Shown here: positions 859 to 24,569 of the stretch, piece by piece
Position numbering within the stretch: the first letter of the stretch is position 1
How the letters are laid out: the number at the start of each line of letters is the position of its first letter
From: Peronospora farinosa
Taxonomy: Eukaryota > Oomycota > Peronosporomycetes > Peronosporales > Peronosporaceae
DNA: 64,000 bases
Direction of reading: 5' to 3'
Assembly: GCA_947646735.1 (NCBI GenBank)
Contig: CANTFK010000863.1
Span: 1 to 64,000 of the forward strand
Made by a program: the position numbers and the translations under genes
The notes under the pieces: model-generated
Seen by the model: only the letters and a program-made list of their open reading frames with translations
Told to the model about the DNA's origin: nothing
Database searches by the model: none

Positions 859-859
859 C

Positions 860-3453: not shown

Positions 3454-3526
3454 ACCCGTCTAGCTCAGTTGGTAGAGCGCTGGCCTTTTAAGCCAGTGGT
3501 CGTGGGTTCGAGCCCCACGGGGGGTG
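3454..3526 (+). tRNA. tRNA-Lys: tRNA-Lys(UUU), copy 3
   Basis: Intact gene whose 5' flank is a SINE copy full of small deletions (3217-3452). Its first 17 nt are the right-hand target duplication. Confidence 0.95.
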
Positions 3527-4640
3527 TTTGCTTCTTTGCGGTCGGCTCTTACCACGCGTGAGCGAGCTGTGCTTGTGTGCGTGTGTTATGTTTAGCCTGT
3601 TGCTTTCGTGATACAATGCTCGGGTGAACGGCATCACTGGTGGAACTGCATTCTCCTTCATTTACCCCATTATACTAACAAGCATTCTACTGCACCTACT
3701 TTCGCCGCGCTCTTAGCGCCTCGTCGACTAGCCTCAAGTATTACGTCCTTTCAGCGGCGCATCGGATGCACACAATCGATCATGAACGGTGACATGAACT
3801 ATGCGGTGCGCTGACGAACTGGCAAACATGGGCGACTGACTGCGAGGCAAAGATGGCCCAGATGGGAGGAAAGCCCGAAGGATGGTCCACGAGCTTCGCT
3901 TACATGGGAAAGATCTGCAAGCTGAAGAAAGGAAGATACAAGTGCTGCGGCCAGCCTGATGATGATGACACTATATAGATTCAAGTGGACTAACAGACCA
4001 GGTAATGATGGTCCATCATTCTCACACACGTAGCAATGAGGAAGCTTGCAATAGCACACAGATGCGGAGGCTAAGTGCTTAATCTGAAGCAAATGTAGCT
4101 GTTTGTTTTGGGCTGGACGACGAGGTCTGGGATACGTTACATTCTGAATGTCATTCATCAATGTCGTTACAACGCGTACATGACGACACACTGGGGTTCT
4201 CGCGTGATCCCGTGAAAGGACTAGGCACTAATACGAACAACACGCTTCAGATGTAACCGTACTTGCAGCACGTCTGATGACTAACTTAAACTGCGCGAGG
4301 AATTGTAGTGAGCTCGTTCATTTGCCAATTTGCCCCCGACTGCCTAGGCACTTTGTTGTCCTTCTTGATCCATTGATTTTGCTTTCTGTGTTGCTTTGCA
4401 TTGCATCGAATAAGAGCAAACGAAGCAGGCATCCGTCAGTTCATACCATTGCGATGACTATTTTGTCAACCTTGATGATAAGTCACTGCTGGTTCCTTTG
4501 CGTGTACCTTAGGCAGGTGGTGTGTGTACGTTGGATTGCGCGATGTGCTGCGCATGGTGCTGCGGTTTGGCTGTGCGTGATAGTGCGCTTTGTGTTAAGT
4601 TGCTGCAAGGTTTCGAAACACACACCCGTCTAGCTCAGTT

Positions 4641-4842
4641 TTAAGTTAGTTGTATATTACCTTTTACACAACCTATACCTTCTCGGCTATGGCTAAGATA
4701 TTACACAGCCCTAAGCTGTTTTTCACTTCCTCTATTATTATATTATCCGTTACGGTTTTGTCGGTTATTATTTACTGGCACGCCATTTGGTTCGATCGAA
4801 ATGTCCTGTGGCTCGACGCATCCCCGGGGAGAAAACGCGGGT
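4641..4842 (-). mobile_element. tRNA-Lys-targeted SINE, copy 3 (short, divergent head, 202 bp)
   Basis: It shares the tail and the plus-strand U2-like segment with copy 1, but the head (about 4770-4842) is strongly altered and both pol III boxes are gone. It is followed by a partial target copy (ccgtctagctcagtt, 4843-4857) and then by another SINE. This suggests a second insertion into the regenerated target. Confidence 0.8.
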
Positions 4843-4857
4843 CCGTCTAGCTCAGTT

Positions 4858-5130
4858 TTAAGTTAGTTGTATATTACCTTTTACACAACTATACCTTCTC
4901 GGCTATGGCTAAGATATTACACAGCTCGCTAAGGCTGAATTTTTTTCTATTCTTTTTCCTCTATTATTAGTATTATACCGTTACGGTTATTGGGGTCGGT
5001 TATTATTTAGCATGGAGCCGACCGCTCTCCATGTGTGGTTCGATTACGAAGATGTCCGGTGTGGGGCTCGAACCCGCAATCCACACCGTGAGGACCAGAA
5101 GCTTAATCCACTACCCCACGCCACCGGGGT
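4858..5130 (-). mobile_element. tRNA-Lys-targeted SINE, copy 4 (273 bp)
   Basis: Nearly identical to copy 1, differing by a one-base deletion (acaactatacc for acaacctatacc). It lies directly after copy 3 in the same orientation and before the intact tRNA at 5132. Confidence 0.85.
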
Positions 5131-5131
5131 C

Positions 5132-5204
5132 ACCCGTCTAGCTCAGTTGGTAGAGCGCTGGCCTTTTAAGCCAGTGGTCGTGGGTTCGAGCCCCACGGGG
5201 GGTG
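5132..5204 (+). tRNA. tRNA-Lys: tRNA-Lys(UUU), copy 4
   Basis: Intact gene downstream of two SINE copies in tandem (4641-4842 and 4858-5130). Confidence 0.95.
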
Positions 5205-6301
5205 TTTGCTTCTTTGCGGTCGGCTCTTACCACGCGTGAGCGAGCTGTGCTTGTGTGCGTGTGTTATGTTTAGCCTGTTGCTTTCGTGATACAATGCTCG
5301 GGTGAACGGCATCACTGGTGGAACTGCATTCTCCTTCATTTACCCCATTATACTAACAAGCATTCTACTGCACCTACTTTCGCCGCGCTCTTAGCGCCTC
5401 GTCGACTAGCCTCAAGTATTACGTCCTTTCAGCGGCGCATCGGATGCACACAATCGATCATGAACGGTGACATGAACTATGCGGTGCGCTGACGAACTGG
5501 CAAACATGGGCGACTGACTGCGAGGCAAAGATGGCCCAGATGGGAGGAAAGCCCGAAGGATGGTCCACGAGCTTCGCTTACATGGGAAAGATCTGCAAGC
5601 TGAAGAAAGGAAGATACAAGTGCTGCGGCCAGCCTGATGATGATGACACTATATAGATTCAAGTGGACTAACAGACCAGGTAATGATGGTCCATCATTCT
5701 CACACACGTAGCAATGAGGAAGCTTGCAATAGCACACAGATGCGGAGGCTAAGTGCTTAATCTGAAGCAAATGTAGCTGTTTGTTTTGGGCTGGACGACG
5801 AGGTCTGGGATACGTTACATTCTGAATGTCATTCATCAATGTCGTTACAACGCGTACATGACGACACACTGGGGTTCTCGCGTGATCCCGTGAAAGGACT
5901 AGGCACTAATACGAACAACACGCTTCAGATGTAACCGTACTTGCAGCACGTCTGATGACTAACTTAAACTGCACGAGGAATTGTAGTGAGCTCGTTCATT
6001 TGCCAATTTGCCCCCGACTGCCTAGGCACTTTGTTGTCCTTCTTGATCCATTGATTTTGCTTTCTGTGTTGCTTTGCATTGCATCGAATAAGAGCAAACG
6101 AAGCAGGCATCCGTCAGTTCATACCATTGCGATGACTATTTTGTCAACCTTGATGATAAGTCACTGCTGGTTCCTTTGCGTGTACCTTAGGCAGGTGGTG
6201 TGTGTACGTTGGATTGCGCGATGTGCTGCGCATGGTGCTGCGGTTTGGCTGTGCGTGATAGTGCGCTTTGTGTTAAGTTGCTGCAAGGTTTCGAAACACA
6301 C

Positions 6302-6374
6302 ACCCGTCTAGCTCAGTTGGTAGAGCGCTGGCCTTTTAAGCCAGTGGTCGTGGGTTCGAGCCCCACGGGGGGTG
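6302..6374 (+). tRNA. tRNA-Lys: tRNA-Lys(UUU), copy 5
   Basis: Intact copy in an empty unit. It is the first tRNA whose unit carries the ctgcacgag variant upstream. Confidence 0.95.
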
Positions 6375-7471
6375 TTTGCTTCTTTGCGGTCGGCTCTTAC
6401 CACGCGTGAGCGAGCTGTGCTTGTGTGCGTGTGTTATGTTTAGCCTGTTGCTTTCGTGATACAATGCTCGGGTGAACGGCATCACTGGTGGAACTGCATT
6501 CTCCTTCATTTACCCCATTATACTAACAAGCATTCTACTGCACCTACTTTCGCCGCGCTCTTAGCGCCTCGTCGACTAGCCTCAAGTATTACGTCCTTTC
6601 AGCGGCGCATCGGATGCACACAATCGATCATGAACGGTGACATGAACTATGCGGTGCGCTGACGAACTGGCAAACATGGGCGACTGACTGCGAGGCAAAG
6701 ATGGCCCAGATGGGAGGAAAGCCCGAAGGATGGTCCACGAGCTTCGCTTACATGGGAAAGATCTGCAAGCTGAAGAAAGGAAGATACAAGTGCTGCGGCC
6801 AGCCTGATGATGATGACACTATATAGATTCAAGTGGACTAACAGACCAGGTAATGATGGTCCATCATTCTCACACACGTAGCAATGAGGAAGCTTGCAAT
6901 AGCACACAGATGCGGAGGCTAAGTGCTTAATCTGAAGCAAATGTAGCTGTTTGTTTTGGGCTGGACGACGAGGTCTGGGATACGTTACATTCTGAATGTC
7001 ATTCATCAATGTCGTTACAACGCGTACATGACGACACACTGGGGTTCTCGCGTGATCCCGTGAAAGGACTAGGCACTAATACGAACAACACGCTTCAGAT
7101 GTAACCGTACTTGCAGCACGTCTGATGACTAACTTAAACTGCACGAGGAATTGTAGTGAGCTCGTTCATTTGCCAATTTGCCCCCGACTGCCTAGGCACT
7201 TTGTTGTCCTTCTTGATCCATTGATTTTGCTTTCTGTGTTGCTTTGCATTGCATCGAATAAGAGCAAACGAAGCAGGCATCCGTCAGTTCATACCATTGC
7301 GATGACTATTTTGTCAACCTTGATGATAAGTCACTGCTGGTTCCTTTGCGTGTACCTTAGGCAGGTGGTGTGTGTACGTTGGATTGCGCGATGTGCTGCG
7401 CATGGTGCTGCGGTTTGGCTGTGCGTGATAGTGCGCTTTGTGTTAAGTTGCTGCAAGGTTTCGAAACACAC

Positions 7472-7544
7472 ACCCGTCTAGCTCAGTTGGTAGAGCGCTG
7501 GCCTTTTAAGCCAGTGGTCGTGGGTTCGAGCCCCACGGGGGGTG
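7472..7544 (+). tRNA. tRNA-Lys: tRNA-Lys(UUU), copy 6
   Basis: Intact copy in an empty unit, exactly 1170 bp from both neighbouring tRNA genes. Confidence 0.95.
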
Positions 7545-8641
7545 TTTGCTTCTTTGCGGTCGGCTCTTACCACGCGTGAGCGAGCTGTGCTTGTGTGCGT
7601 GTGTTATGTTTAGCCTGTTGCTTTCGTGATACAATGCTCGGGTGAACGGCATCACTGGTGGAACTGCATTCTCCTTCATTTACCCCATTATACTAACAAG
7701 CATTCTACTGCACCTACTTTCGCCGCGCTCTTAGCGCCTCGTCGACTAGCCTCAAGTATTACGTCCTTTCAGCGGCGCATCGGATGCACACAATCGATCA
7801 TGAACGGTGACATGAACTATGCGGTGCGCTGACGAACTGGCAAACATGGGCGACTGACTGCGAGGCAAAGATGGCCCAGATGGGAGGAAAGCCCGAAGGA
7901 TGGTCCACGAGCTTCGCTTACATGGGAAAGATCTGCAAGCTGAAGAAAGGAAGATACAAGTGCTGCGGCCAGCCTGATGATGATGACACTATATAGATTC
8001 AAGTGGACTAACAGACCAGGTAATGATGGTCCATCATTCTCACACACGTAGCAATGAGGAAGCTTGCAATAGCACACAGATGCGGAGGCTAAGTGCTTAA
8101 TCTGAAGCAAATGTAGCTGTTTGTTTTGGGCTGGACGACGAGGTCTGGGATACGTTACATTCTGAATGTCATTCATCAATGTCGTTACAACGCGTACATG
8201 ACGACACACTGGGGTTCTCGCGTGATCCCGTGAAAGGACTAGGCACTAATACGAACAACACGCTTCAGATGTAACCGTACTTGCAGCACGTCTGATGACT
8301 AACTTAAACTGCACGAGGAATTGTAGTGAGCTCGTTCATTTGCCAATTTGCCCCCGACTGCCTAGGCACTTTGTTGTCCTTCTTGATCCATTGATTTTGC
8401 TTTCTGTGTTGCTTTGCATTGCATCGAATAAGAGCAAACGAAGCAGGCATCCGTCAGTTCATACCATTGCGATGACTATTTTGTCAACCTTGATGATAAG
8501 TCACTGCTGGTTCCTTTGCGTGTACCTTAGGCAGGTGGTGTGTGTACGTTGGATTGCGCGATGTGCTGCGCATGGTGCTGCGGTTTGGCTGTGCGTGATA
8601 GTGCGCTTTGTGTTAAGTTGCTGCAAGGTTTCGAAACACAC

Positions 8642-8714
8642 ACCCGTCTAGCTCAGTTGGTAGAGCGCTGGCCTTTTAAGCCAGTGGTCGTGGGTTCGAG
8701 CCCCACGGGGGGTG
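8642..8714 (+). tRNA. tRNA-Lys: tRNA-Lys(UUU), copy 7
   Basis: Last intact gene before the LINE. The next one, 1170 bp on, is cut at 9829. Confidence 0.95.
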
Positions 8715-9811
8715 TTTGCTTCTTTGCGGTCGGCTCTTACCACGCGTGAGCGAGCTGTGCTTGTGTGCGTGTGTTATGTTTAGCCTGTTGCTTTCGTGAT
8801 ACAATGCTCGGGTGAACGGCATCACTGGTGGAACTGCATTCTCCTTCATTTACCCCATTATACTAACAAGCATTCTACTGCACCTACTTTCGCCGCGCTC
8901 TTAGCGCCTCGTCGACTAGCCTCAAGTATTACGTCCTTTCAGCGGCGCATCGGATGCACACAATCGATCATGAACGGTGACATGAACTATGCGGTGCGCT
9001 GACGAACTGGCAAACATGGGCGACTGACTGCGAGGCAAAGATGGCCCAGATGGGAGGAAAGCCCGAAGGATGGTCCACGAGCTTCGCTTACATGGGAAAG
9101 ATCTGCAAGCTGAAGAAAGGAAGATACAAGTGCTGCGGCCAGCCTGATGATGATGACACTATATAGATTCAAGTGGACTAACAGACCAGGTAATGATGGT
9201 CCATCATTCTCACACACGTAGCAATGAGGAAGCTTGCAATAGCACACAGATGCGGAGGCTAAGTGCTTAATCTGAAGCAAATGTAGCTGTTTGTTTTGGG
9301 CTGGACGACGAGGTCTGGGATACGTTACATTCTGAATGTCATTCATCAATGTCGTTACAACGCGTACATGACGACACACTGGGGTTCTCGCGTGATCCCG
9401 TGAAAGGACTAGGCACTAATACGAACAACACGCTTCAGATGTAACCGTACTTGCAGCACGTCTGATGACTAACTTAAACTGCACGAGGAATTGTAGTGAG
9501 CTCGTTCATTTGCCAATTTGCCCCCGACTGCCTAGGCACTTTGTTGTCCTTCTTGATCCATTGATTTTGCTTTCTGTGTTGCTTTGCATTGCATCGAATA
9601 AGAGCAAACGAAGCAGGCATCCGTCAGTTCATACCATTGCGATGACTATTTTGTCAACCTTGATGATAAGTCACTGCTGGTTCCTTTGCGTGTACCTTAG
9701 GCAGGTGGTGTGTGTACGTTGGATTGCGCGATGTGCTGCGCATGGTGCTGCGGTTTGGCTGTGCGTGATAGTGCGCTTTGTGTTAAGTTGCTGCAAGGTT
9801 TCGAAACACAC

Positions 9812-9829
9812 ACCCGTCTAGCTCAGTTG
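9812..9829 (+). pseudogene. tRNA-Lys 5' fragment, left LINE target duplication
   Basis: Only acccgtctagctcagttg, the first 18 nt of the tRNA, remains before the LINE 3' end. The identical 18 nt begin the intact tRNA at 17064, on the other side of the LINE. Comparable 17 nt fragments lie left of the SINEs at 568-584, 3200-3216, 4624-4640 and 21744-21760. A shortened one (ccgtctagctcagtt) lies at 4843-4857. Confidence 0.9.
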
Positions 9830-10033
9830 AAAGGTTGTCTATATTACTAGAATTTAGACGAAGTGACTACTCAATCTACCTAGCTATGTATAGAAACTAC
9901 TGCTGTTTTTCTAATAAATATACTGTACAGTTGCTATGTTTCATGTTTCTTGGGAATAGCGTGCAAGTTGTTTCTTGCGTGATGTGCGAGTGTGGATGAT
10001 TCCGATGTGTGTGAATAGACGCAGGAGCAGTGG
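9830..10033 (-). other. LINE 3' UTR and tail
   Basis: 204 bp between the ORF2 stop and the left target duplication. It is AT-rich, with no poly-A tract at the junction. The last 20 bases on the minus strand resemble the SINE 3' end, the usual sign that a SINE borrows the LINE machinery. Confidence 0.6.
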
Positions 10034-13000
10034 CTACTGTTGGAGGTGACGGACTGGGAACATGGCGGGGTGCGCCGTTGCAAAATCTCCAAAAGGCGGA
10101 TACTTCCTCATCTTGATAAGCGCCTTCTCCAGTGATGCGCTCTCATCGTCATCGTAGCGCCTCCTCAGGTTGTGCCGAAAGTGCGCGCTGGCTGTGGTGA
10201 AGATGACCATCGTTGCTGATGTCGTCGGTGTGGGCTGTCTTCCGTCGAACAGACACCGATTGCGGTCGGACCAGATGAAGTGGAGTGTCACCGCGCGGAG
10301 CGTGTGCCATACATCTCCGATGATGTCTTCACACTCCTTCCATTCGTCTCGCACGACTGGTTTCCTTGCTGTCGCTATCATGACCCATGTCAGTTGAGAT
10401 CGGACGAACGGCGCCATGATGTTCCCAAAGTGTTCCCACAGTCTTGTCGCGAGTGAACATTCGAAGAACAAGTGCTGCTCTGTCTCGACTGCGTCGCACC
10501 TGTCTCGGATGCAGTATATGATGCGTGGGTTCGACTGCTGCAGGAACCAGAACCGCGATCGAACCGGTAGGAGTCGAAACGCGAGGCGGAACTGCAGATC
10601 TTCGAACACAGGGAGCAGGATCTTGCGCAGGTGCTTGCTGAACTTGACGTACGCTTTGATCTGCTCGTCGCCAACTCGCTGCGAGTGCACAGTCATCGGA
10701 TGTGGCTTCGTCGGTGGTTTTGGCGTCCACACCACACGCAGCAGCGCAGATCTCGGGATCGCTGGGATCAAGCACACCTTCGCGTCGCTATTGCAACCCA
10801 GATGGGGAAGAAGTCGCCGTGCACTGCTCGAAGCCTGCAGAACAAGCTGCGTCGCGCCAAGTCGCTCGACGATCTGAGTCGCTTCCTTGTACAACACTCG
10901 CAGCCACTTTGCCTGTTGTCCAGGGGAGACAGATGCAAGCGTGAAGTCAAGGTGGCGCTGGACGAAATCTTGCTGCGACGGCCAAGCACAGCTTTCACGC
11001 ATGAAGTCAACGAGCGACCGCACACCAAAGACTCGTGACACGTGCAGCCGGAAACTCCGCTGTGGCTCGACCACCATCCCAATGCACCGCCGATGCGCCA
11101 CGCAGGTGTGAGTCCGCGGAGTCTGCTCGAAATGAAGCTCTGCATCCGAATGGAACCAGATCGGCTGTCGGAGACCGTACCAAGCGCGCTCCTCAAAAGG
11201 AAGGTCTTGCCACGTGACTTCCCACCGGATCTTGTACCACCACGTCCACGTCGCTCTCCACCAGGTTGAAGTCAGTCTCCACTTGATCATGTCGCCATGT
11301 CGGAGTGGAGAGACCACGAGGAAGTCGAGTGCGTTGTAGCCACCGGTGCGAGGAAGAACCAGTTGGAGCAACTCACAGCTCGCTGTCGTCCAGTTCCGCG
11401 CTTCCGTCACTCTCGCAGCCCGTATGAACTGCAGAAGCAGCTGAAGACGCTGGCGCTTGAGATGTGCTTCCAGGCTTGGGATTCCCAAACCACCTTCACT
11501 CCGTCGCTGATACAGGAACTCGCTTGGGATCAGCTGGATGTACGACGCGTCTCGGTCGTGCTTTCGACTCAGCACGAACCGATTCAGCATCGACTGCCAT
11601 CGCTTCACGACTGTTGCTGGGATTGACACATGTTGTGTGTAGTGCCACAAGCGGGAGAGCACCATCGTTTGAGCGACCAGAAGTCGCCCACGAAGCGTCC
11701 TTGCGCGCCGGTACCACATCTTGAAGCCGTCGTAGAAGCGCTGCTCGAGGAACTCCACGAGGTCGTCATCCACCGACGACTGCCCAAACGGGATGCCAAG
11801 GTACTTCACCGTCTCCGCACGACCCAGCACTTGCACTCCGGGGAGCGAAGGGCAGGTCTGGTTCCGATTTAGTGCTAGCAGCGTCGACTTGGACAGATTG
11901 AGCTTCGCGCCAGAGCCTTTGCAGTACTCATCCACGGTGTCAAGCTGCGCCTGCAAGTTCGGTATCGAGCTCGCAAGCAGAGTTGAGTCGTCCGCGAAGA
12001 ACGTGCTCGTCGTCGTGTGGTCTGCATTCAGACACACTCCGTACTCTTCGTGCGCACGCAGCATGTTGCCGAGCGGCTCGATGGTCAAGACGAAGAGCAG
12101 CGCAGACAACGGATCGCCTTGCTTCACTCCTCGTGTCGGAAACAGCGCAGGCTGGATGTTCTGGTTGATGAGAAGATGCGCTTGAGGGTCGGTGTACAGC
12201 AGCTTGATCCACTGAGCAAACTCTGAACCGAACCTCATTCGCTCGAGCAGCCGGAACATGTAGTCCCAGTTCACTCGATCGAACGCCTTCTGGAAGTCCA
12301 AGAACATCGCGTACGCTTCTTCATCGCGACTCGTTGTCAAGTCTTGGAGGTCCGCGAGGAACCGCACATGGTGGTGAATTGAGCGACCCTTGACGAAGCC
12401 CTTCTGGTCGGGATGGATCAAGTCGGCGATCACTTGCTGGAGTCGATACGTCAGAGCCTTGGACAGCACCTTCACATCGACCTGCACCAGTGCGATGGGT
12501 CGGTAGTTGCCAGGCTCTGCTCTCGAACCCTTCTTGTGCAGAAGCACGACTGCAGACTTGCGCTGAGACGGGAGCAGCACGCCACGCTTGAGACGTTCGT
12601 TGAACACGATGCTCAAGCACTCTCCGAACACGTCCGGAGCCACCTGGTAGAAACCAGCGGTCAATCCGTCCATGCCGGGTGCTGACGACGCTTTCATGTG
12701 TCGGATCGCGCTCGCAAGGTCCGAAGAAGTGACCGGTGCGTCCAAGATCGCACGGTCAGTCTCCGTGACGAAGCAGACAATCGAGTCGAGAAGCTTGCGC
12801 TGCATGCCATCGTCGGGTGGAGGAGCTCTCCCTGTCGGACTGTTGGGGTCTCCCATCTCGGACCCCCAGTGCTCCAGGAAGCGGAGAGAGATCTCGTGAG
12901 GGTTCGTCGAGACACTTCCACCCGGTGTCATCACCTCTTCGATCGAGACTCGTCTCAAGCTCGTGTCCAGCGGACGGAAGAAGTGCTTGGTCGATTTCTC

Positions 13001-14113
13001 GGAGTTGGCGGCTTGGAAGTCGAATGCAGTGTCTTGGTTGTATTGGCTCGTCCGCGTGACCGTCTCCTTATAGTTCCTCATGGCTTCGTCGAAGTGGTCT
13101 CGATTCGAATCGCTTCCTGCTGTGCGATACCTTGCCGCAGCTTGATCCAACTGCACGCGAGCTTCTTCGACAGCTTGAGAGTCTTGCATCCGGAGCTTCT
13201 TCTGCACGTCTTGGAGTTGGGTCTTGATGCTCGCCTTCCATTCCTCCCAGATCTTGCCTGGGTTGGACGTGGTGCGTAGCTTGTCTCGGACCAGCTCGGC
13301 TTCTTTCTCGATCGCAGACACCACCACTGGGTATTCCAGCAGATAGCGGGGGAACTTCCAGTACCCTCGTCCATGCAGCTGCGAGCCAGACCTGAAACTC
13401 ACACTGTGAGCAAGGTGGTCTCCAGCATGCATCGGCAGGAAGTACTTGGAGGTGTCGTAGAAGCGGTCGTAGAAAGACTCTGACAGCAAGATGTAGTCCA
13501 GCCGATTCTTCCGAGGAAGAGGACCAGTGAACACACGCTTGGTGTCGAAGTGGATCCGCCATGCATCGACGACACCCAGCTTCGCCAACCATTCGAGGCA
13601 ACTGGACCGGCTGGGATCGTAGCGCAAGTCGGGGTTGGAAGAATCAAGTCTCGGGTCCAGGGGAGTGTTGAGATCGCCCAACACAAAATGCGTCGCTTGA
13701 TCTTCGAACTCCTCGGTCGCCAAGCTCGAGAAGAATTGTTGCTTTTCTTGGCGGTCCACAGGCGCATACACGTTGTGAATGTAGATGGGAGCACTCTCAA
13801 CCATTACTTTCACGACGAGGTAGCGTCCGGGAACCGACAGACTTGGAAATTCAACAGCCGAGTCGAAGCCAGGGAAGTCAGAGCGGAGCACAGTCAACAC
13901 TCCATTGCTCCGTCCTCGCGTGGGTCGATGCAGCTGTGAGTTGGGGTCGTCCACGAAGACCTTGTGCTTGAAGCTCGAGTCGAGGTGGAACTTGAAATTG
14001 GAAAGATGGGTGCTGTCGCCGAACTTGGTTTCTTGGACGCACGCCATTGAGTACTTGGAGAGCATGCTCTCGATAAATAGGTGGCCATTCTTCTTGATGC
14101 CATTAGTGTTCAC
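10034..14113 (-). CDS. LINE ORF2: AP-endonuclease, reverse transcriptase, zinc-finger protein
   Basis: A 1359-codon open frame. Residues 1-240 form an AP-like endonuclease: NTNGI at 2-6, QETKF with Glu28, LGDLNT at 145-150, LDYILL at 205-210 and GDHLAHS at 231-237 with the catalytic Asp-His. Residues about 515-790 are reverse transcriptase: YRPIALV at 537-543, LDFQKAFD with Asp606 at 605-612, GVKQGDPLS at 662-670 and active site FADD at 706-709. A zf-RVT finger (C-x4-C, H, C) is at 1201-1219. It should nick the tRNA-Lys target and prime reverse transcription. The listed first codon is GTG. The frame is open further upstream past the ORF1 stop, and no ATG precedes the catalytic NTNGI, so translation may need reinitiation or frameshifting. 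No RNase H was seen. Confidence 0.95.
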   Translation of the reverse strand: MNTNGIKKNGHLFIESMLSKYSMACVQETKFGDSTHLSNFKFHLDSSFKHKVFVDDPNSQLHRPTRGRSNGVLTVLRSDFPGFDSAVEFPSLSVPGRYLVVKVMVESAPIYIHNVYAPVDRQEKQQFFSSLATEEFEDQATHFVLGDLNTPLDPRLDSSNPDLRYDPSRSSCLEWLAKLGVVDAWRIHFDTKRVFTGPLPRKNRLDYILLSESFYDRFYDTSKYFLPMHAGDHLAHSVSFRSGSQLHGRGYWKFPRYLLEYPVVVSAIEKEAELVRDKLRTTSNPGKIWEEWKASIKTQLQDVQKKLRMQDSQAVEEARVQLDQAAARYRTAGSDSNRDHFDEAMRNYKETVTRTSQYNQDTAFDFQAANSEKSTKHFFRPLDTSLRRVSIEEVMTPGGSVSTNPHEISLRFLEHWGSEMGDPNSPTGRAPPPDDGMQRKLLDSIVCFVTETDRAILDAPVTSSDLASAIRHMKASSAPGMDGLTAGFYQVAPDVFGECLSIVFNERLKRGVLLPSQRKSAVVLLHKKGSRAEPGNYRPIALVQVDVKVLSKALTYRLQQVIADLIHPDQKGFVKGRSIHHHVRFLADLQDLTTSRDEEAYAMFLDFQKAFDRVNWDYMFRLLERMRFGSEFAQWIKLLYTDPQAHLLINQNIQPALFPTRGVKQGDPLSALLFVLTIEPLGNMLRAHEEYGVCLNADHTTTSTFFADDSTLLASSIPNLQAQLDTVDEYCKGSGAKLNLSKSTLLALNRNQTCPSLPGVQVLGRAETVKYLGIPFGQSSVDDDLVEFLEQRFYDGFKMWYRRARTLRGRLLVAQTMVLSRLWHYTQHVSIPATVVKRWQSMLNRFVLSRKHDRDASYIQLIPSEFLYQRRSEGGLGIPSLEAHLKRQRLQLLLQFIRAARVTEARNWTTASCELLQLVLPRTGGYNALDFLVVSPLRHGDMIKWRLTSTWWRATWTWWYKIRWEVTWQDLPFEERAWYGLRQPIWFHSDAELHFEQTPRTHTCVAHRRCIGMVVEPQRSFRLHVSRVFGVRSLVDFMRESCAWPSQQDFVQRHLDFTLASVSPGQQAKWLRVLYKEATQIVERLGATQLVLQASSSARRLLPHLGCNSDAKVCLIPAIPRSALLRVVWTPKPPTKPHPMTVHSQRVGDEQIKAYVKFSKHLRKILLPVFEDLQFRLAFRLLPVRSRFWFLQQSNPRIIYCIRDRCDAVETEQHLFFECSLATRLWEHFGNIMAPFVRSQLTWVMIATARKPVVRDEWKECEDIIGDVWHTLRAVTLHFIWSDRNRCLFDGRQPTPTTSATMVIFTTASAHFRHNLRRRYDDDESASLEKALIKMRKYPPFGDFATAHPAMFPVRHLQQ

Positions 14114-14162
14114 AGTCAGAACACTGATGTTGCTCCACGTCGGTTGTGACGTCGAGGAAGGT

Positions 14163-16965
14163 TTAGCAACGAGTGGCCAATCCGCCCGCTACCATCGCAA
14201 CTCCACCTTCAACGACTTGAAGCTGCAACACCGAAGCGTCTTCTTTGTAGAACCCGTCAAGCTTCTGAAGCGACTCGAGGTCGTCCAGAAGGTGACCTTG
14301 CCACTGCACTTCACTCCACTGCTGCATACAGTGCGCACCGAGCTCGGACCGCAAGAGACGAAGGAGGGTGTTCACGTGGAGAAGTCGCGTGTTGTGTGCT
14401 GGGATCCACTCGACGGGCTGACCCGTGAGGTACTGGATCCAGTGGTCGTTGTTGAAGATCGTCGGCGCGATCGACATGAGCATGAGCTCGAACATGCCCA
14501 AAGCCTTGGACGAGCGAGACAGCTCCTTGATCGAGTCGGACGACGTCCACCACTTCGCACACGTCTTGAAAATGTCGCTACGCTTCGACGGAACTGCCGA
14601 TCCCATCAGCTTCTTCCACTTCGTGCTGAACGTGGTGTCTTCATTGGGCTGCGTCGCACAGAACACGCGGTTGATCGCGTGAAGTTGCGCCAGTTCTGCG
14701 ATCTCGTGTCCGCTTCCAGCCATCTTCAACGCCAATGCGCTGTTGAAGGCGAGCGGACACTCGACCGCTTTCTTCGTGATGTGGTCAGGATTCGTGGCGT
14801 TCTCGAGCAGCTTGCACACGCCGTCGACCTTCTTGTCCGCTTTCGCAAGACAGTCAGGGAGGGTGTTGAGAAGCGCCGTGTTCTCGTCGTTGATCATCGC
14901 CTCGGTCACTTCGAGGACCGGCGACGCCTTTGCTGCTTTCTTGATCTTCGTGTGGTGCTTCTCGACGAAGAAAGCAGACTCGGTCGAGGTCTTCAATTCG
15001 TCGGGACGCTTCACATCCGCAGGGACAACCTGATAGCGGACTCCATACTGTTTGTCAGCAGTCAAGTTCTTCGATTCGAACTTGACCTCCATCGACTGGA
15101 GCGCTTGAAAGTAGTTGGAGGTGGCGATGCCATTCAAGGGCTGCGTGGACTGCTTCACCAACATGTTGGAGAAGTCGATCGCGTTGCGGCCGCGTTTCTT
15201 CTTGTTGGACGCATCGATGAAGCCATCGCTGGCTCCGGTGGTCAACAACAGCTTCGGCTTGGCTGTAGCTTTCGGACTCCCTGGGGGAGTGATCTTGCCG
15301 TTGGATCCGTTGAACGTCGAGATCGAGAGCGCATCCGAGTTGCTTCCTTGAAGCTTGGTGAGCTGATTGGCAGCGGGTGGCTTGCCATGCTGAGCTCCTT
15401 TCTGGAGCTGACCTTCCCGTTTTTTCGCATCCTCAACTGCCCTTTGAAGCGAGGTTTGCTTGGTTATCGCCGTCGGTCGATCGCATTCGCATTTGCATTT
15501 ACAGCTTGCGCGTACGTCCGTGTTAGAGTGGTGTTGTTGATGATGCTGGCGATCTGGCTCGGGCACAGGTGCAGACGGCGGAAAGACGTCGTCAGTCGTG
15601 CCCAAATCGATTCCGTGTTGCGAGCGAAAGCCAAACGGCAGACGCTCAGAGCTGGAAAGGAGCGTTCTTCCCGTGTGCCGGGTGCAGCTTATTCTCAAAC
15701 AACACTTGGTCACAGACGCTGCCGTTCACCAACAAGGCACTGGAGGACATGAACTTGACAAGAAGTACACCCGCCAAGTCGCAGACGTGATACCAGTCGC
15801 GAGGTTCACTTCTCGAAAGGTGTCATACACTGGCTTGCACCCTAGCAGGAACAAGCGCTGCATGATCAAATCCGTATCCGTGTCAGAGTCGACATTAGAG
15901 ATGTCGATGAAGTACTTGCCGCCAAGGATGTCAAACTCCTTGAACAGGTACACCCCACCGAGGATGTTCACCTTCGTCCGCTTCGAGTTGCAGACAAGCT
16001 TCCTTCGATTTCACCTTCATTCGAAGATTGCCACCGGGAAGCTTTGAGATCTGGCCTATCTCGTAGCGGCTGTAGAGGTCTTCGAGAAAGTCGTTGCCAT
16101 GGTTTCTGACCCGAAAGCGAAGACAGTAATTTTCTGGAGCGGAAGTCTTGGCAAGCGTCCGTACCAGTCTCGATCACCATGTCGTACTTGGCGCGAGGAA
16201 GCTACATACGGCCGAGCTTGATCCATGCGAGACGCGATGAACGACCAATCGCCACCAGCGGCGTACTGGCGCTCGATCCCCTCAATATCGCAAGCGAGTG
16301 GCTTCGGGGTCTCGACGCGACTTGCGGGCAGCATCGTTCTCAGCACGGTCGCGACGAAGGTGGTCGTGCTGCCGGAGCAGCTCGGCCATGGTCGGACGTG
16401 TGTCTTCGGCTGGCGCTTCCACAGTACCTCCTTCCACCATGACGACATCCCCATCGTCAGTGGTGGTGTCAGGCGGATTCTCGGTTAAAGTACCACCTGG
16501 GGTGGTCGCTTCATCCAGTCCTGGAAGTCCCTCCGAAGATGGGTTGAAGCTGGAATTTTCTCCAGTTTCGAAATCACTTCCCAAATGTTTGCAAGTTGAA
16601 CTTGCAGTTGGGGTGGGTTCGGAACCGGATCCCAATTTTGGTCGACTTGCACTTGCACTTGCACTTGCACTTGCACTTGGACTTGAACTTGAACTTGGGG
16701 TGGGTTGAAAACCAGATCCCAAATTTTCGCGCGTTGAACTTGAACTTGCACTTGAACCTGGGGTGGGTTCAGAGTCTTGCGACACCGAACCGTTCCCTCC
16801 CGTTCCACGAATCCACGCTTCTGATTGGTCAGAGCCATGGGTTGAGGACGACGGGGGAACAGACGAGGCAGGCTTCTCACTGGATTCTTTCCCGGAACCA
16901 TGATGACGAGCGGCATTGGCTGGGTTGGCAGCTGTGGCCGAGGTTGGATTCGTGGGAGCGAACAT
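14163..16965 (-). pseudogene. LINE ORF1 (RNA-binding/structural protein), frameshifted
   Basis: ORF1 begins with ATG at 16965 in a low-complexity Ser/Pro/Thr-rich N-terminus with an (SA)n stretch. It continues in pieces in different frames: 16965-16282, about 16330-16180, 16180-15970, 15971-15765, about 15765-15660, and a 516-codon C-terminal piece 15713-14163. A conserved-looking core includes GGKYFIDISNVDSDTD (about 15920-15873), and further down a short cysteine run CKCKCEC. At least four frame changes separate the pieces, so it cannot make one protein as assembled, although ORF2 is intact. Its stop at 14163 lies inside the open ORF2 frame. The C-terminal part is not assigned to a named domain. 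Confidence 0.75.
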
Positions 16966-17063
16966 AGCGGAAAAGCTTGGACAGAGGGGGGCGGCGGGAG
17001 CGGCGGGCGAGAGAGGGTTCTTCTGAAGAGTCGACTTGTGGGGTAGCCGGCAAATTGAGAAGT

Positions 17064-17136
17064 ACCCGTCTAGCTCAGTTGGTAGAGCGCTGGCCTTTTA
17101 AGCCAGTGGTCGTGGGTTCGAGCCCCACGGGGGGTG
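17064..17136 (+). tRNA. tRNA-Lys: tRNA-Lys(UUU), copy 8
   Basis: Complete gene at the 5' end of the minus-strand LINE. Its upstream base is t of the LINE 5' end (gaagt) instead of the native cacac flank. The gene survives because its first 18 nt were duplicated on LINE insertion (partner at 9812-9829). Confidence 0.95.
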
Positions 17137-18233
17137 TTTGCTTCTTTGCGGTCGGCTCTTACCACGCGTGAGCGAGCTGTGCTTGTGTGCGTGTGTTATG
17201 TTTAGCCTGTTGCTTTCGTGATACAATGCTCGGGTGAACGGCATCACTGGTGGAACTGCATTCTCCTTCATTTACCCCATTATACTAACAAGCATTCTAC
17301 TGCACCTACTTTCGCCGCGCTCTTAGCGCCTCGTCGACTAGCCTCAAGTATTACGTCCTTTCAGCGGCGCATCGGATGCACACAATCGATCATGAACGGT
17401 GACATGAACTATGCGGTGCGCTGACGAACTGGCAAACATGGGCGACTGACTGCGAGGCAAAGATGGCCCAGATGGGAGGAAAGCCCGAAGGATGGTCCAC
17501 GAGCTTCGCTTACATGGGAAAGATCTGCAAGCTGAAGAAAGGAAGATACAAGTGCTGCGGCCAGCCTGATGATGATGACACTATATAGATTCAAGTGGAC
17601 TAACAGACCAGGTAATGATGGTCCATCATTCTCACACACGTAGCAATGAGGAAGCTTGCAATAGCACACAGATGCGGAGGCTAAGTGCTTAATCTGAAGC
17701 AAATGTAGCTGTTTGTTTTGGGCTGGACGACGAGGTCTGGGATACGTTACATTCTGAATGTCATTCATCAATGTCGTTACAACGCGTACATGACGACACA
17801 CTGGGGTTCTCGCGTGATCCCGTGAAAGGACTAGGCACTAATACGAACAACACGCTTCAGATGTAACCGTACTTGCAGCACGTCTGATGACTAACTTAAA
17901 CTGCACGAGGAATTGTAGTGAGCTCGTTCATTTGCCAATTTGCCCCCGACTGCCTAGGCACTTTGTTGTCCTTCTTGATCCATTGATTTTGCTTTCTGTG
18001 TTGCTTTGCATTGCATCGAATAAGAGCAAACGAAGCAGGCATCCGTCAGTTCATACCATTGCGATGACTATTTTGTCAACCTTGATGATAAGTCACTGCT
18101 GGTTCCTTTGCGTGTACCTTAGGCAGGTGGTGTGTGTACGTTGGATTGCGCGATGTGCTGCGCATGGTGCTGCGGTTTGGCTGTGCGTGATAGTGCGCTT
18201 TGTGTTAAGTTGCTGCAAGGTTTCGAAACACAC

Positions 18234-18306
18234 ACCCGTCTAGCTCAGTTGGTAGAGCGCTGGCCTTTTAAGCCAGTGGTCGTGGGTTCGAGCCCCACGG
18301 GGGGTG
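18234..18306 (+). tRNA. tRNA-Lys: tRNA-Lys(UUU), copy 9
   Basis: Intact copy in an empty unit. The same unit carries the private ctcaaatatt substitution about 280 bp downstream. Confidence 0.95.
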
Positions 18307-19403
18307 TTTGCTTCTTTGCGGTCGGCTCTTACCACGCGTGAGCGAGCTGTGCTTGTGTGCGTGTGTTATGTTTAGCCTGTTGCTTTCGTGATACAATGCT
18401 CGGGTGAACGGCATCACTGGTGGAACTGCATTCTCCTTCATTTACCCCATTATACTAACAAGCATTCTACTGCACCTACTTTCGCCGCGCTCTTAGCGCC
18501 TCGTCGACTAGCCTCAAATATTACGTCCTTTCAGCGGCGCATCGGATGCACACAATCGATCATGAACGGTGACATGAACTATGCGGTGCGCTGACGAACT
18601 GGCAAACATGGGCGACTGACTGCGAGGCAAAGATGACCCAGATGGGAGGAAAGCCCGAAGGATGGTCCACGAGCTTCGCTTACATGGGAAAGATCTGCAA
18701 GCTGAAGAAAGGAAGATACAAGTGCTGCGGCCAGCCTGATGATGATGACACTATATAGATTCAAGTGGACTAACAGACCAGGTAATGATGGTCCATCATT
18801 CTCACACACGTAGCAATGAGGAAGCTTGCAATAGCACACAGATGCGGAGGCTAAGTGCTTAATCTGAAGCAAATGTAGCTGTTTGTTTTGGGCTGGACGA
18901 CGAGGTCTGGGATACGTTACATTCTGAATGTCATTCATCAATGTCGTTACAACGCGTACATGACGACACACTGGGGTTCTCGCGTGATCCCGTGAAAGGA
19001 CTAGGCACTAATACGAACAACACGCTTCAGATGTAACCGTACTTGCAGCACGTCTGATGACTAACTTAAACTGCACGAGGAATTGTAGTGAGCTCGTTCA
19101 TTTGCCAATTTGCCCCCGACTGCCTAGGCACTTTGTTGTCCTTCTTGATCCATTGATTTTGCTTTCTGTGTTGCTTTGCATTGCATCGAATAAGAGCAAA
19201 CGAAGCAGGCATCCGTCAGTTCATACCATTGCGATGACTATTTTGTCAACCTTGATGATAAGTCACTGCTGGTTCCTTTGCGTGTACCTTAGGCAGGTGG
19301 TGTGTGTACGTTGGATTGCGCGATGTGCTGCGCATGGTGCTGCGGTTTGGCTGTGCGTGATAGTGCGCTTTGTGTTAAGTTGCTGCAAGGTTTCGAAACA
19401 CAC

Positions 19404-19476
19404 ACCCGTCTAGCTCAGTTGGTAGAGCGCTGGCCTTTTAAGCCAGTGGTCGTGGGTTCGAGCCCCACGGGGGGTG
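19404..19476 (+). tRNA. tRNA-Lys: tRNA-Lys(UUU), copy 10
   Basis: Intact copy in an empty unit that has the gatgaccc variant downstream. Confidence 0.95.
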
Positions 19477-20573
19477 TTTGCTTCTTTGCGGTCGGCTCTT
19501 ACCACGCGTGAGCGAGCTGTGCTTGTGTGCGTGTGTTATGTTTAGCCTGTTGCTTTCGTGATACAATGCTCGGGTGAACGGCATCACTGGTGGAACTGCA
19601 TTCTCCTTCATTTACCCCATTATACTAACAAGCATTCTACTGCACCTACTTTCGCCGCGCTCTTAGCGCCTCGTCGACTAGCCTCAAGTATTACGTCCTT
19701 TCAGCGGCGCATCGGATGCACACAATCGATCATGAACGGTGACATGAACTATGCGGTGCGCTGACGAACTGGCAAACATGGGCGACTGACTGCGAGGCAA
19801 AGATGACCCAGATGGGAGGAAAGCCCGAAGGATGGTCCACGAGCTTCGCTTACATGGGAAAGATCTGCAAGCTGAAGAAAGGAAGATACAAGTGCTGCGG
19901 CCAGCCTGATGATGATGACACTATATAGATTCAAGTGGACTAACAGACCAGGTAATGATGGTCCATCATTCTCACACACGTAGCAATGAGGAAGCTTGCA
20001 ATAGCACACAGATGCGGAGGCTAAGTGCTTAATCTGAAGCAAATGTAGCTGTTTGTTTTGGGCTGGACGACGAGGTCTGGGATACGTTACATTCTGAATG
20101 TCATTCATCAATGTCGTTACAACGCGTACATGACGACACACTGGGGTTCTCGCGTGATCCCGTGAAAGGACTAGGCACTAATACGAACAACACGCTTCAG
20201 ATGTAACCGTACTTGCAGCACGTCTGATGACTAACTTAAACTGCACGAGGAATTGTAGTGAGCTCGTTCATTTGCCAATTTGCCCCCGACTGCCTAGGCA
20301 CTTTGTTGTCCTTCTTGATCCATTGATTTTGCTTTCTGTGTTGCTTTGCATTGCATCGAATAAGAGCAAACGAAGCAGGCATCCGTCAGTTCATACCATT
20401 GCGATGACTATTTTGTCAACCTTGATGATAAGTCACTGCTGGTTCCTTTGCGTGTACCTTAGGCAGGTGGTGTGTGTACGTTGGATTGCGCGATGTGCTG
20501 CGCATGGTGCTGCGGTTTGGCTGTGCGTGATAGTGCGCTTTGTGTTAAGTTGCTGCAAGGTTTCGAAACACAC

Positions 20574-20646
20574 ACCCGTCTAGCTCAGTTGGTAGAGCGC
20601 TGGCCTTTTAAGCCAGTGGTCGTGGGTTCGAGCCCCACGGGGGGTG
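20574..20646 (+). tRNA. tRNA-Lys: tRNA-Lys(UUU), copy 11
   Basis: Intact copy in an empty unit, with the gatgaccc variant downstream. Confidence 0.95.
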
Positions 20647-21760
20647 TTTGCTTCTTTGCGGTCGGCTCTTACCACGCGTGAGCGAGCTGTGCTTGTGTGC
20701 GTGTGTTATGTTTAGCCTGTTGCTTTCGTGATACAATGCTCGGGTGAACGGCATCACTGGTGGAACTGCATTCTCCTTCATTTACCCCATTATACTAACA
20801 AGCATTCTACTGCACCTACTTTCGCCGCGCTCTTAGCGCCTCGTCGACTAGCCTCAAGTATTACGTCCTTTCAGCGGCGCATCGGATGCACACAATCGAT
20901 CATGAACGGTGACATGAACTATGCGGTGCGCTGACGAACTGGCAAACATGGGCGACTGACTGCGAGGCAAAGATGACCCAGATGGGAGGAAAGCCCGAAG
21001 GATGGTCCACGAGCTTCGCTTACATGGGAAAGATCTGCAAGCTGAAGAAAGGAAGATACAAGTGCTGCGGCCAGCCTGATGATGATGACACTATATAGAT
21101 TCAAGTGGACTAACAGACCAGGTAATGATGGTCCATCATTCTCACACACGTAGCAATGAGGAAGCTTGCAATAGCACACAGATGCGGAGGCTAAGTGCTT
21201 AATCTGAAGCAAATGTAGCTGTTTGTTTTGGGCTGGACGACGAGGTCTGGGATACGTTACATTCTGAATGTCATTCATCAATGTCGTTACAACGCGTACA
21301 TGACGACACACTGGGGTTCTCGCGTGATCCCGTGAAAGGACTAGGCACTAATACGAACAACACGCTTCAGATGTAACCGTACTTGCAGCACGTCTGATGA
21401 CTAACTTAAACTGCACGAGGAATTGTAGTGAGCTCGTTCATTTGCCAATTTGCCCCCGACTGCCTAGGCACTTTGTTGTCCTTCTTGATCCATTGATTTT
21501 GCTTTCTGTGTTGCTTTGCATTGCATCGAATAAGAGCAAACGAAGCAGGCATCCGTCAGTTCATACCATTGCGATGACTATTTTGTCAACCTTGATGATA
21601 AGTCACTGCTGGTTCCTTTGCGTGTACCTTAGGCAGGTGGTGTGTGTACGTTGGATTGCGCGATGTGCTGCGCATGGTGCTGCGGTTTGGCTGTGCGTGA
21701 TAGTGCGCTTTGTGTTAAGTTGCTGCAAGGTTTCGAAACACACACCCGTCTAGCTCAGTT

Positions 21761-22032
21761 TTAAGTTAGTTGTATATTACCTTTTACACAACCTATACCT
21801 TCTCGGCTATGGCTAAGATATTACACAGCTCGCTAAGGCTGAATTTTTTCTATTCTTTTTCCTCTATTATTAGTATTATACCGTTACGGTTATTGGGGTC
21901 GGTTATTATTTAGCATGGAGCCGACCGCTCTCCATGTGTGGTTCGATTACGAAGATGTCCGGTGTGGGGCTCGAACCCGCAATCCACACCGTGAGGACCA
22001 GAAGCTAATCCACTACCCCACGCCACCGGGGT
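21761..22032 (-). mobile_element. tRNA-Lys-targeted SINE, copy 5 (272 bp)
   Basis: It lies in the right array block with duplications at 21743-21760 and 22033-22050. It differs from copy 1 by one T fewer in a T run and by gaagctaatcc for gaagcttaatcc. Being so close to copy 1, it either spread with array exchange or inserted recently. Confidence 0.85.
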
Positions 22033-22033
22033 C

Positions 22034-22106
22034 ACCCGTCTAGCTCAGTTGGTAGAGCGCTGGCCTTTTAAGCCAGTGGTCGTGGGTTCGAGCCCCACGG
22101 GGGGTG
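22034..22106 (+). tRNA. tRNA-Lys: tRNA-Lys(UUU), copy 12
   Basis: Intact copy downstream of the fifth SINE (21761-22032). The left target duplication is at 21743-21760. Confidence 0.95.
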
Positions 22107-23203
22107 TTTGCTTCTTTGCGGTCGGCTCTTACCACGCGTGAGCGAGCTGTGCTTGTGTGCGTGTGTTATGTTTAGCCTGTTGCTTTCGTGATACAATGCT
22201 CGGGTGAACGGCATCACTGGTGGAACTGCATTCTCCTTCATTTACCCCATTATACTAACAAGCATTCTACTGCACCTACTTTCGCCGCGCTCTTAGCGCC
22301 TCGTCGACTAGCCTCAAGTATTACGTCCTTTCAGCGGCGCATCGGATGCACACAATCGATCATGAACGGTGACATGAACTATGCGGTGCGCTGACGAACT
22401 GGCAAACATGGGCGACTGACTGCGAGGCAAAGATGACCCAGATGGGAGGAAAGCCCGAAGGATGGTCCACGAGCTTCGCTTACATGGGAAAGATCTGCAA
22501 GCTGAAGAAAGGAAGATACAAGTGCTGCGGCCAGCCTGATGATGATGACACTATATAGATTCAAGTGGACTAACAGACCAGGTAATGATGGTCCATCATT
22601 CTCACACACGTAGCAATGAGGAAGCTTGCAATAGCACACAGATGCGGAGGCTAAGTGCTTAATCTGAAGCAAATGTAGCTGTTTGTTTTGGGCTGGACGA
22701 CGAGGTCTGGGATACGTTACATTCTGAATGTCATTCATCAATGTCGTTACAACGCGTACATGACGACACACTGGGGTTCTCGCGTGATCCCGTGAAAGGA
22801 CTAGGCACTAATACGAACAACACGCTTCAGATGTAACCGTACTTGCAGCACGTCTGATGACTAACTTAAACTGCACGAGGAATTGTAGTGAGCTCGTTCA
22901 TTTGCCAATTTGCCCCCGACTGCCTAGGCACTTTGTTGTCCTTCTTGATCCATTGATTTTGCTTTCTGTGTTGCTTTGCATTGCATCGAATAAGAGCAAA
23001 CGAAGCAGGCATCCGTCAGTTCATACCATTGCGATGACTATTTTGTCAACCTTGATGATAAGTCACTGCTGGTTCCTTTGCGTGTACCTTAGGCAGGTGG
23101 TGTGTGTACGTTGGATTGCGCGATGTGCTGCGCATGGTGCTGCGGTTTGGCTGTGCGTGATAGTGCGCTTTGTGTTAAGTTGCTGCAAGGTTTCGAAACA
23201 CAC

Positions 23204-23276
23204 ACCCGTCTAGCTCAGTTGGTAGAGCGCTGGCCTTTTAAGCCAGTGGTCGTGGGTTCGAGCCCCACGGGGGGTG
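23204..23276 (+). tRNA. tRNA-Lys: tRNA-Lys(UUU), copy 13
   Basis: Last intact gene of the array. Its unit carries the gatggccc form, unlike the four units to its left. Confidence 0.95.
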
Positions 23277-24569
23277 TTTGCTTCTTTGCGGTCGGCTCTT
23301 ACCACGCGTGAGCGAGCTGTGCTTGTGTGCGTGTGTTATGTTTAGCCTGTTGCTTTCGTGATACAATGCTCGGGTGAACGGCATCACTGGTGGAACTGCA
23401 TTCTCCTTCATTTACCCCATTATACTAACAAGCATTCTACTGCACCTACTTTCGCCGCGCTCTTAGCGCCTCGTCGACTAGCCTCAAGTATTACGTCCTT
23501 TCAGCGGCGCATCGGATGCACACAATCGATCATGAACGGTGACATGAACTATGCGGTGCGCTGACGAACTGGCAAACATGGGCGACTGACTGCGAGGCAA
23601 AGATGGCCCAGATGGGAGGAAAGCCCGAAGGATGGTCCACGAGCTTCGCTTACATGGGAAAGATCTGCAAGCTGAAGAAAGGAAGATACAAGTGCTGCGG
23701 CCAGCCTGATGATGATGACACTATATAGATTCAAGTGGACTAACAGACCAGGTAATGATGGTCCATCATTCTCACACACGTAGCAATGAGGAAGCTTGCA
23801 ATAGCACACAGATGCGGAGGCTAAGTGCTTAATCTGAAGCAAATGTAGCTGTTTGTTTTGGGCTGGACGACGAGGTCTGGGATACGTTACATTCTGAATG
23901 TCATTCATCAATGTCGTTACAACGCGTACATGACGACACACTGGGGTTCTCGCGTGATCCCGTGAAAGGACTAGGCACTAATACGAACAACACGCTTCAG
24001 ATGTAACCGTACTTGCAGCACGTCTGATGACTAACTTAAACTGCGCGAGGAATTGTAGTGAGCTCGTTCATTTGCCAATTTGCCCCCGACTGCCTAGGCA
24101 CTTTGTTGTCCTTCTTGATCCATTGATTTTGCTTTCTGTGTTGCTTTGCATTGCATCGAATAAGAGCAAACGAAGCAGGCATCCGTCAGTTCATACCATT
24201 GCGATGACTATTTTGTCAACCTTGATGATAAGTCACTGCTGGTTCCTTTGCGTGTACCTTAGGCAGGTGGTGTGTGTACGTTGGATTGCGCGATGTGCTG
24301 CGCATGGTGCTGCGGTTTGGCTGTGCGTGATAGTGCGCTTTGTGTTAAGTTGCTGCAAGGTTTCGAAACACACACCCATACGAGTTAATGTACTAAAGTA
24401 TGATTGGCTATTTTCTTACAACTTACATACTAAACACGTACTCAGCATCTAAAAATTCTGATTGATTAAAACGAAATAATCAGATTATTTAAATGCTGAG
24501 TGATAATCTACCAATTGGATATCTCTACCTTCCCACCTCAAATTATTCGATCAGATCCTCAACTTCACC

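Follow-up and report, generated by a model that had tools for sequence, protein, structure and literature searches.

How can a retrotransposon enter a transfer RNA (tRNA) gene at a precise site, more than once, and still leave a complete gene behind? This question is raised by the first 64,000 nucleotides (nt) of contig CANTFK010000863.1 of the oomycete Peronospora farinosa, a stretch referred to here as the window, in which a long interspersed nuclear element (LINE) lies within a tandem array of tRNA-Lys genes. The LINE is very probably a copy of a target-specific, apurinic/apyrimidinic endonuclease (APE)-type non-long terminal repeat (non-LTR) retrotransposon family, comprising subfamilies A and B, which inserts by target-primed reverse transcription (TPRT) at the A box/D arm of tRNA genes bearing TAGCTCA, with the tRNA being rebuilt and a short interspersed nuclear element (SINE)-like element occupying the same site. 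An earlier interpretation of the window, based on its letters alone (the sequence-only reading), had instead described a LINE specific for tRNA-Lys(UUU).

The LINE of the window and its family

The 18-mer ACCCGTCTAGCTCAGTTG, corresponding to nt 1-18 of tRNA-Lys, is found exactly at 9812-9829 and 17064-17081; a search of the window allowing up to three mismatches finds it 19 times, whereas shuffles would be expected to yield 0.03 matches. The LINE between these two copies has the following features.

9812..9829, plus strand: remnant of tRNA-Lys nt 1-18 at the LINE 3' junction; nt 1-14 from target or donor, GTTG supplied by the element
9830..17063, minus strand: LINE, 7,234 bp, with its 5' end at 17063 and its 3' end at 9830, antisense to the tRNA
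9830..9889, minus strand: 3' tail of the LINE, with a weak terminal hairpin; homologous to that of subfamily B
10034..14188, minus strand: open reading frame (ORF) 2, APE endonuclease and reverse transcriptase (RT), 1384 amino acids (aa) from stop to stop with no internal stop
14163..16965, minus strand: ORF1 region broken by frameshifts, with open pieces at 16285-16965 and 14163-15725
15341..16400, minus strand: patch of 1,060 bp in ORF1 with about 94% similarity to subfamily B
17064..17136, plus strand: complete rebuilt tRNA-Lys(TTT), nt 1 touching the LINE 5' end

Much of the sequence-only reading was borne out at this locus. It had placed an APE LINE of about 7.2 kb between 18-bp repeats equal to nt 1-18 of tRNA-Lys, at an exact site in a multicopy target, and the 7,234 bp element does carry APE and RT domains, is bounded by perfect 18-mers and has exact junctions within a tandem array. 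The full tRNA gene said to be rebuilt at 17064 was likewise recovered, as ARAGORN calls a complete tRNA-Lys(TTT) at 17063-17137 and the Rfam alignment of an identical array copy gives the same start base as the gene at 17064. Throughout, nt 1 is defined by the Rfam alignment of tRNA-Lys as lying seven bases before U8, as ARAGORN begins some genes one base earlier. Uninterrupted units repeat every 1170 bp on both sides (8642 to 9812 and 17064 to 18234), and the 7,252-bp gap therefore corresponds to one insertion in one array unit. An assembly artefact was ruled out, the same junctions being present on seven contigs; an artefact of one place is also unlikely because eight full-length ORF2 copies are found on five contigs in differing tRNA contexts.

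ORF2 matches RVT_1 (PF00078, 1.4e-37) and Exo_endo_phos (PF03372, 4.8e-07) in Pfam, and its nearest structure in the PDB is human L1 ORF2p, at 206.5 bits against 87.3 for R2. With these APE and RT domains, and copies at one exact site as described below, the LINE probably falls among target-specific APE-type retrotransposons; it has no poly(A) tail at its 3' end. When the genome (G000; 46,851,245 bases in 274 contigs) was searched with ORF2, the eight full-length copies (query 1-1384) had 100% identity as rounded, one of them containing a TAG. Four full-length copies of subfamily B, at 76-77% identity, were also found, together with fragments and more distant families. The eight copies diverge from one another by 0-2 bases per 250 in ORF2 and at the 3' end, and the family appears on this basis to have been recently active. 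ORF1 is open, at 932 aa, in the copy at C248:625396-632625, and a Pfam search with this 932-aa protein gave no match. In its initial ~500 bp, and again from ~1,750 as far as its end, the window LINE is nearly identical to its sister copies; the ORF1 patch differs from them by about 25%. The window copy is hence a mosaic, in which a subfamily B patch (15341-16400) lies within an otherwise subfamily A element and coincides with the broken ORF1.

One site in many tRNA genes

In the 46.85-Mb genome, a pattern representing the LINE 3' tail had 18 exact matches, on seven contigs, and none with one mismatch. Only these 18 were counted because the background at two to three mismatches equals the control (45 matches in total vs 43); of the inexact matches, those on C48 and C36 were inspected, the former being a diverged junction at TTTGGCTCAGTT, with TGGCTCA, and the latter an unrelated stretch. 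The tRNA names were taken from ARAGORN and Rfam, using the plain ARAGORN run except for tRNA-Tyr, for which the run allowing introns, otherwise cluttered, was used. All flanks were read, and beyond each of the 18 exact tails lies the 5' end of a tRNA in antisense orientation: Thr in seven cases, Cys in three, Ala and Ile in two each, and Lys, Trp, Tyr and Phe in one each. The sequence directly after the tail is always CAACTGAGCTA, except for CAACTGAACTA in one copy.

At the other end of the element, a 5' end pattern gave 16 matches with 0-2 mismatches, against none in a reversed control. In 13 of these the LINE directly adjoins nt 1 of a tRNA gene (an extra A intervenes in one, and in one the gene is a Met/Tyr chimera), and in the remaining three it adjoins nt 1 of a remnant within a stack of insertions. 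LINE copies are therefore confined to one tRNA site at 18/18 exact 3' tails and 16/16 5' ends, and the unrelated flanks that the sequence-only reading named as evidence against specific integration are found at none of them. The chimeric gene (L077, G000:C220:229401-229600), beside a LINE 5' end, scores 34.9 bits in Rfam and has a 5' half like tRNA-Met and a 3' part matching the intron-containing tRNA-Tyr of locus L071; it represents either recombination, a template switch or an assembly error.

The second element at this site is represented by five insertions in the window, upstream of genes of the same array.

859..23277, plus strand: tandem tRNA-Lys(TTT) array of 13 genes with a unit of 1170 bp, from gene calls and motif search
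586..859, minus strand: SINE-like element 1; remnant at 568-585, tRNA from 860
3218..3453, minus strand: SINE-like element 2, a diverged copy (84%) that has undergone deletions; remnant at 3200-3217
4642..4840, minus strand: SINE-like element 3, the outer of two stacked elements; degenerate, with 85% across the part that can be aligned (4642-4774)
4859..5131, minus strand: SINE-like element 4, the inner of the two stacked elements, adjoining the intact tRNA at 5132
21762..22033, minus strand: SINE-like element 5; remnant at 21744-21761, tRNA from 22034

These were located through a motif search of the window, which found extra copies of the tRNA 5' end at 568, 3200, 4624, 4841 and 21744, each ending CTCAGTTT and each followed by an element of up to about 274 bp, in the orientation of the LINE, and then an intact tRNA; after the remnant at 4624, two such elements occur in succession before the tRNA. 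In all, five of the 13 tRNA-Lys genes have one or more insertions directly upstream. The five elements share one common sequence, which is SINE-like in being short (274 bp), lacking a long ORF and lying at the site of a LINE. A B-box-like GGTTCGAGCC was seen by eye, and a search of the head of the element with Rfam gave no tRNA match at E <= 1. Across the genome, a DNA search found 18 matches and a tail pattern 16 exact tails; the junction of every one of these tails has CTCAGTTT, and they lie in Phe (6), Lys (5), Cys (2), Ala, Thr and Ile (1 each); a further match, interrupted by the start of contig C198, has tRNA-Phe on its 5' side. As the contig (C229) starts with the window, the tRNA-Lys array may extend past it. 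At its other end, near 24385, the array breaks off mid-unit; the open stretch beyond it (24385-25400) resembles a gamma-glutamyl hydrolase-like secreted protein, as judged by eye with no search made.

The window copy, bounded as it is by nt 1-18 of tRNA-Lys, would fit an element specific for tRNA-Lys(UUU) only. This part of the sequence-only reading is refuted and retains practically no probability, since just one of the 18 LINE 3' tails is in tRNA-Lys and the other 17 are in seven further tRNA types sharing TAGCTCA, as 11 of the 16 SINE tails are likewise in types other than tRNA-Lys. The target is instead the A box, TAGCTCA at nt 8-14, which many tRNA genes share. This motif is present at nt 8-14 in all hit genes but two, the diverged junction on C48 and the Met/Tyr chimera, both of which have TGGCTCA. 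Genes without it stand in the same arrays: tRNA-His (TAGTATAGTGG) alternates with hit Ala genes and tRNA-Ser (TGGCCGAGTGG) with hit Thr and Trp genes, and of the 34 exact tails of LINE and SINE together, not one lies in tRNA-His or tRNA-Ser. The extended motif TAGCTCA-N1-4-GGNAGAGC has 216 matches in the genome, against seven for the control.

Copies in an array need not be independent, as array units already carrying a LINE or SINE could have been duplicated. The two Ala copies on C235, the Thr copies on C248 and the Phe SINEs on C198 have the same flanks, and some of these may indeed be duplications. For the family as a whole, this explanation is refuted, because duplication cannot move an insert between tRNA types, whereas the same precise junction is found in eight of them, among unrelated spacers; there is very little chance that it accounts for the distribution. 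The finding is broader than the sequence-only reading: an APE-type LINE lineage and a SINE-like element, both specific for the A box across many tRNA genes. The five SINE-like insertions in the same array, the stacking and the part of the repeat supplied by the element are all additional to it.

Junctions, stacks and a proposed mechanism

The sequence-only reading regarded the 18-bp repeat as a duplication, and in the window both copies are indeed identical; its last bases, GTTG, come from the element. A true 18-bp target-site duplication, produced by a wide stagger between nicks, would explain the agreement of both copies over 18 bp in tRNA-Lys. However, the repeat looks 18 bp long there because tRNA-Lys itself reads GTTG at nt 15-18. 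The target genes read CTCAAATGG in Ala, CTCAGTGG in Cys, Thr and Trp, and CTCAGTCGG in Ile, whereas the LINE junctions in these five types (15/18) all read CTCAGTTG, unlike the target gene. As GTTG mismatches the target in 15 of 18 junctions, it is therefore the element that supplies it; SINE copies supply GTTT at the same position. The origin of nt 8-14 is not distinguishable in these copies, because the same bases are present in target and tail. The repeat is thus only partly a target duplication, and a full 18-bp duplication is rated highly improbable, all the more because in three stacks the match to the local tRNA is limited to the first five bases.

The stacks were identified by reading flanks.

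Window 4642-5131; C240:84.2-91.7k; C56:7.0-21.0k: two-element stacks
C248:623.3-632.6k: three-element stack (SINE, 5'-truncated LINE, full LINE) at one tRNA-Thr

All five remnants at inner stack positions (window 4841-4858; C240:84.47k; C248:623.6k and 625.38k; C56:14.03k) differ from the local tRNA. One has a single substitution, one has two changed bases and three are composites, each unique in the genome and located at its own stack junction. At a local Ile gene, the remnant is GGTCG+ATGTAGCTCA, the second part fitting an Ala gene (ATGTAGCTC); at Thr it is GCCCC+GATAGCTCA, the second part fitting a Phe gene (GATAGCTC), although this remnant departs from its target at just one base; and at Cys it is GCGCG+CTGTAGCTCA, the second part fitting an Ile(TAT) gene (CTGTAGCTC). 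Elsewhere, each of the 13 single SINE remnants agrees with a tRNA type present in its own array, and 1/16 LINE remnants outside inner stack positions is degenerate (C248:589281). Differences of one base between remnant and adjacent tRNA are found in Phe (GCCTCGA/GCCTCGG), Cys (GCGCGGG/GCGCGGA) and Ala (GGGGATG/GGCGATG). In the window stack the SINE adjoining the tRNA is intact and the outer copy has degenerated, which fits the youngest insertion being nearest the tRNA; the other stacks give no age order.

These junctions are consistent with the LINE entering antisense to the tRNA by TPRT. The tRNA-sense strand would prime synthesis of complementary DNA (cDNA) somewhere in nt 5-14, following recognition of the A box by what would be the LINE endonuclease, and the other strand would be joined exactly before nt 1. 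Because the repeated stretch starts at nt 1, insertion restores a complete tRNA gene, presumably still transcribed, next to the 5' end of the LINE. Since this gene is a fresh target, insertions can stack upstream of one intact tRNA, and since a complete gene remains after each insertion, copies can pile up without gene loss. The SINE-like element probably uses the enzyme of the LINE.

More tentatively, the three composite remnants, with five local tRNA bases followed by bases fitting another tRNA, hint at how a new target might be found. The RNA of the element may read through into its antisense tRNA home, and this borrowed tail (CAACUGAGCUA and a few tRNA-specific bases) could then pair with the next nicked A box. 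In these three cases, the antisense stretch of an earlier tRNA home would have been copied onto a primer ending near nt 5; as nt 8-14 are common to many tRNAs, one enzyme could enter many tRNA types. Such a process is a possibility rather than an expectation, and it accounts only in part for the deviation of the inner stack remnants.

Several observations weigh against the main explanation. No exact LINE or SINE tail lies in the tRNA-Asn(GTT) genes among the matches listed, at least 53 on C74 and two on C38 (L083 and L084; G000:C74:9-40424 and C38:979-1778). Their A box is identical to that of tRNA-Lys (TAGCTCAGTTGGTAGAGC), so that having this motif is not enough to forecast an insertion; the genes may be empty through homogenisation of their arrays. 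A possible diverged LINE 5' end on C58, with three mismatches and hence outside the count of 16, has no clean tRNA junction, and no tail could be recognised in old fragments on C233 and C273. A subfamily B LINE at about C248:614250-621246 has tRNA-Trp on its 5' side and a tRNA-Thr remnant on its 3' side, which looks like later recombination, as if between two insertions. One diverged SINE-like copy, with 77% identity, lies on C257 at a place other than an A box. Finally, the SINE and LINE tails are weakly alike (p 0.04-0.10 vs shuffles), and the proposal that the LINE moves the SINE consequently relies on the shared site and junction and not on the tail; terminal hairpins fold in the SINE and subfamily B tails, and weakly in that of subfamily A.

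The empty tRNA-Asn arrays are also relevant to an alternative in which targeting is achieved through the RNA polymerase III (Pol III) transcription machinery, as with TRE5-A of Dictyostelium, and not through A-box DNA, in that they suggest DNA sequence alone may not suffice. Every target is a Pol III gene, entered in a single orientation and at a fixed distance from nt 1. Nevertheless, the insertions fall at fixed bases inside the gene, whereas TRE5-A, in the available part of PMC5391098, integrates ~47 bp upstream within a window of positions. The tRNA-His and tRNA-Ser genes of the same arrays carry no insertions despite also being Pol III genes, and pairing with the target strand is what the bases at the junctions suggest. 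Targeting by Pol III factors is on balance unlikely, and recognition of the A box itself is preferred.

If A-box recognition and gene rebuilding operate as proposed, a tRNA gene would be a self-renewing landing pad bearing a time-ordered stack, with the youngest insertion next to the tRNA. Confirmation would establish that a retrotransposon found in nature exploits a motif common to many tRNA genes, spares the gene and can re-enter its site repeatedly. It would then become possible to test where the exact specificity of an APE endonuclease comes from and whether the 3' flank of the RNA is a replaceable targeting tail.

Relatives and comparison with known systems

The search for ORF2 relatives found 73 proteins, many without names. 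Those named at high identity are from Globisporangium splendens (many), Peronospora matthiolae (72%) and Lagenidium giganteum (52% over part), with one further name beginning 'Plasmo'; the named relatives being oomycetes, the family is of oomycete type, as the sequence-only reading supposed. Two distant relatives in a collection of genome contigs (25-27% identity) were not used further, and none was found in a collection of viral contigs. In an RT tree, built without a Tx1 or human L1 reference and with weak deep nodes, the oomycete lineage has support of 0.997 for 8 members and 1.0 for 11, and a wider group of 24, including a second LINE family of the same genome, has 0.966. This second family (L029 on C243 and L031 on C246) has 31-32% identity in ORF2, and its fetched flanks contain no tRNA.

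Target-specific LINEs such as R1, R2 and Tx1L likewise occupy one exact site in a multicopy sequence. Ribosomal RNA genes hit by R1 or R2 become inactivated. The present LINE, which has no poly(A) tail, differs from these elements in its targets, and unlike those rRNA genes the tRNA gene is rebuilt. A LINE tied to tRNA loci is also known in Dewa, of the Tx1 clade.

The following comparisons draw on excerpts of the papers cited. Dewa inserts in a tRNA-Leu spacer in zebrafish (PMC3706591), whereas the present LINE lies inside genes of other tRNA types. In Dictyostelium, TRE5-A (~47 bp upstream) and TRE3 (~100 bp downstream) similarly depend on tRNA genes, guided by TFIIIC/TFIIIB, and several may be found at one gene (PMC5391098); these integrate outside the gene at a typical distance, whereas the junctions described here are inside it, at nt 1 and nt 14-18. 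Utopia, in oomycetes and animals, is a closer parallel in its host and habit, several families per array being kept at one site of a multicopy small-RNA gene (PMC4640811). By contrast with the present APE-type LINE, which targets tRNA genes and rebuilds them, it has a restriction-like endonuclease and disrupts the U2 small nuclear RNA (snRNA) gene, the downstream U2 starting at nt 39. The A box itself is a target of the DNA transposons Dada-tI and Dada-tY in Perkinsus, with the same core motif, TAGCTC, as the duplication (PMC3706591). These encode a DDE transposase, generate 6-7 bp duplications and use one tRNA type per family, whereas the present element has a reverse transcriptase and another junction structure and takes at least eight types.

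A literature search limited to open-licence PMC papers found no LINE inside a tRNA A box, and none is described in the available portions of PMC4640811, PMC8869645, PMC3706591, PMC5391098 and PMC9584435. Large tRNA arrays are reported from Phytophthora in the accessible part of PMC9584435, and the mechanism proposed here, if confirmed, would link such oomycete arrays to the persistence of target-specific elements. The nearest systems in that search are Dewa, the TREs and Dada.

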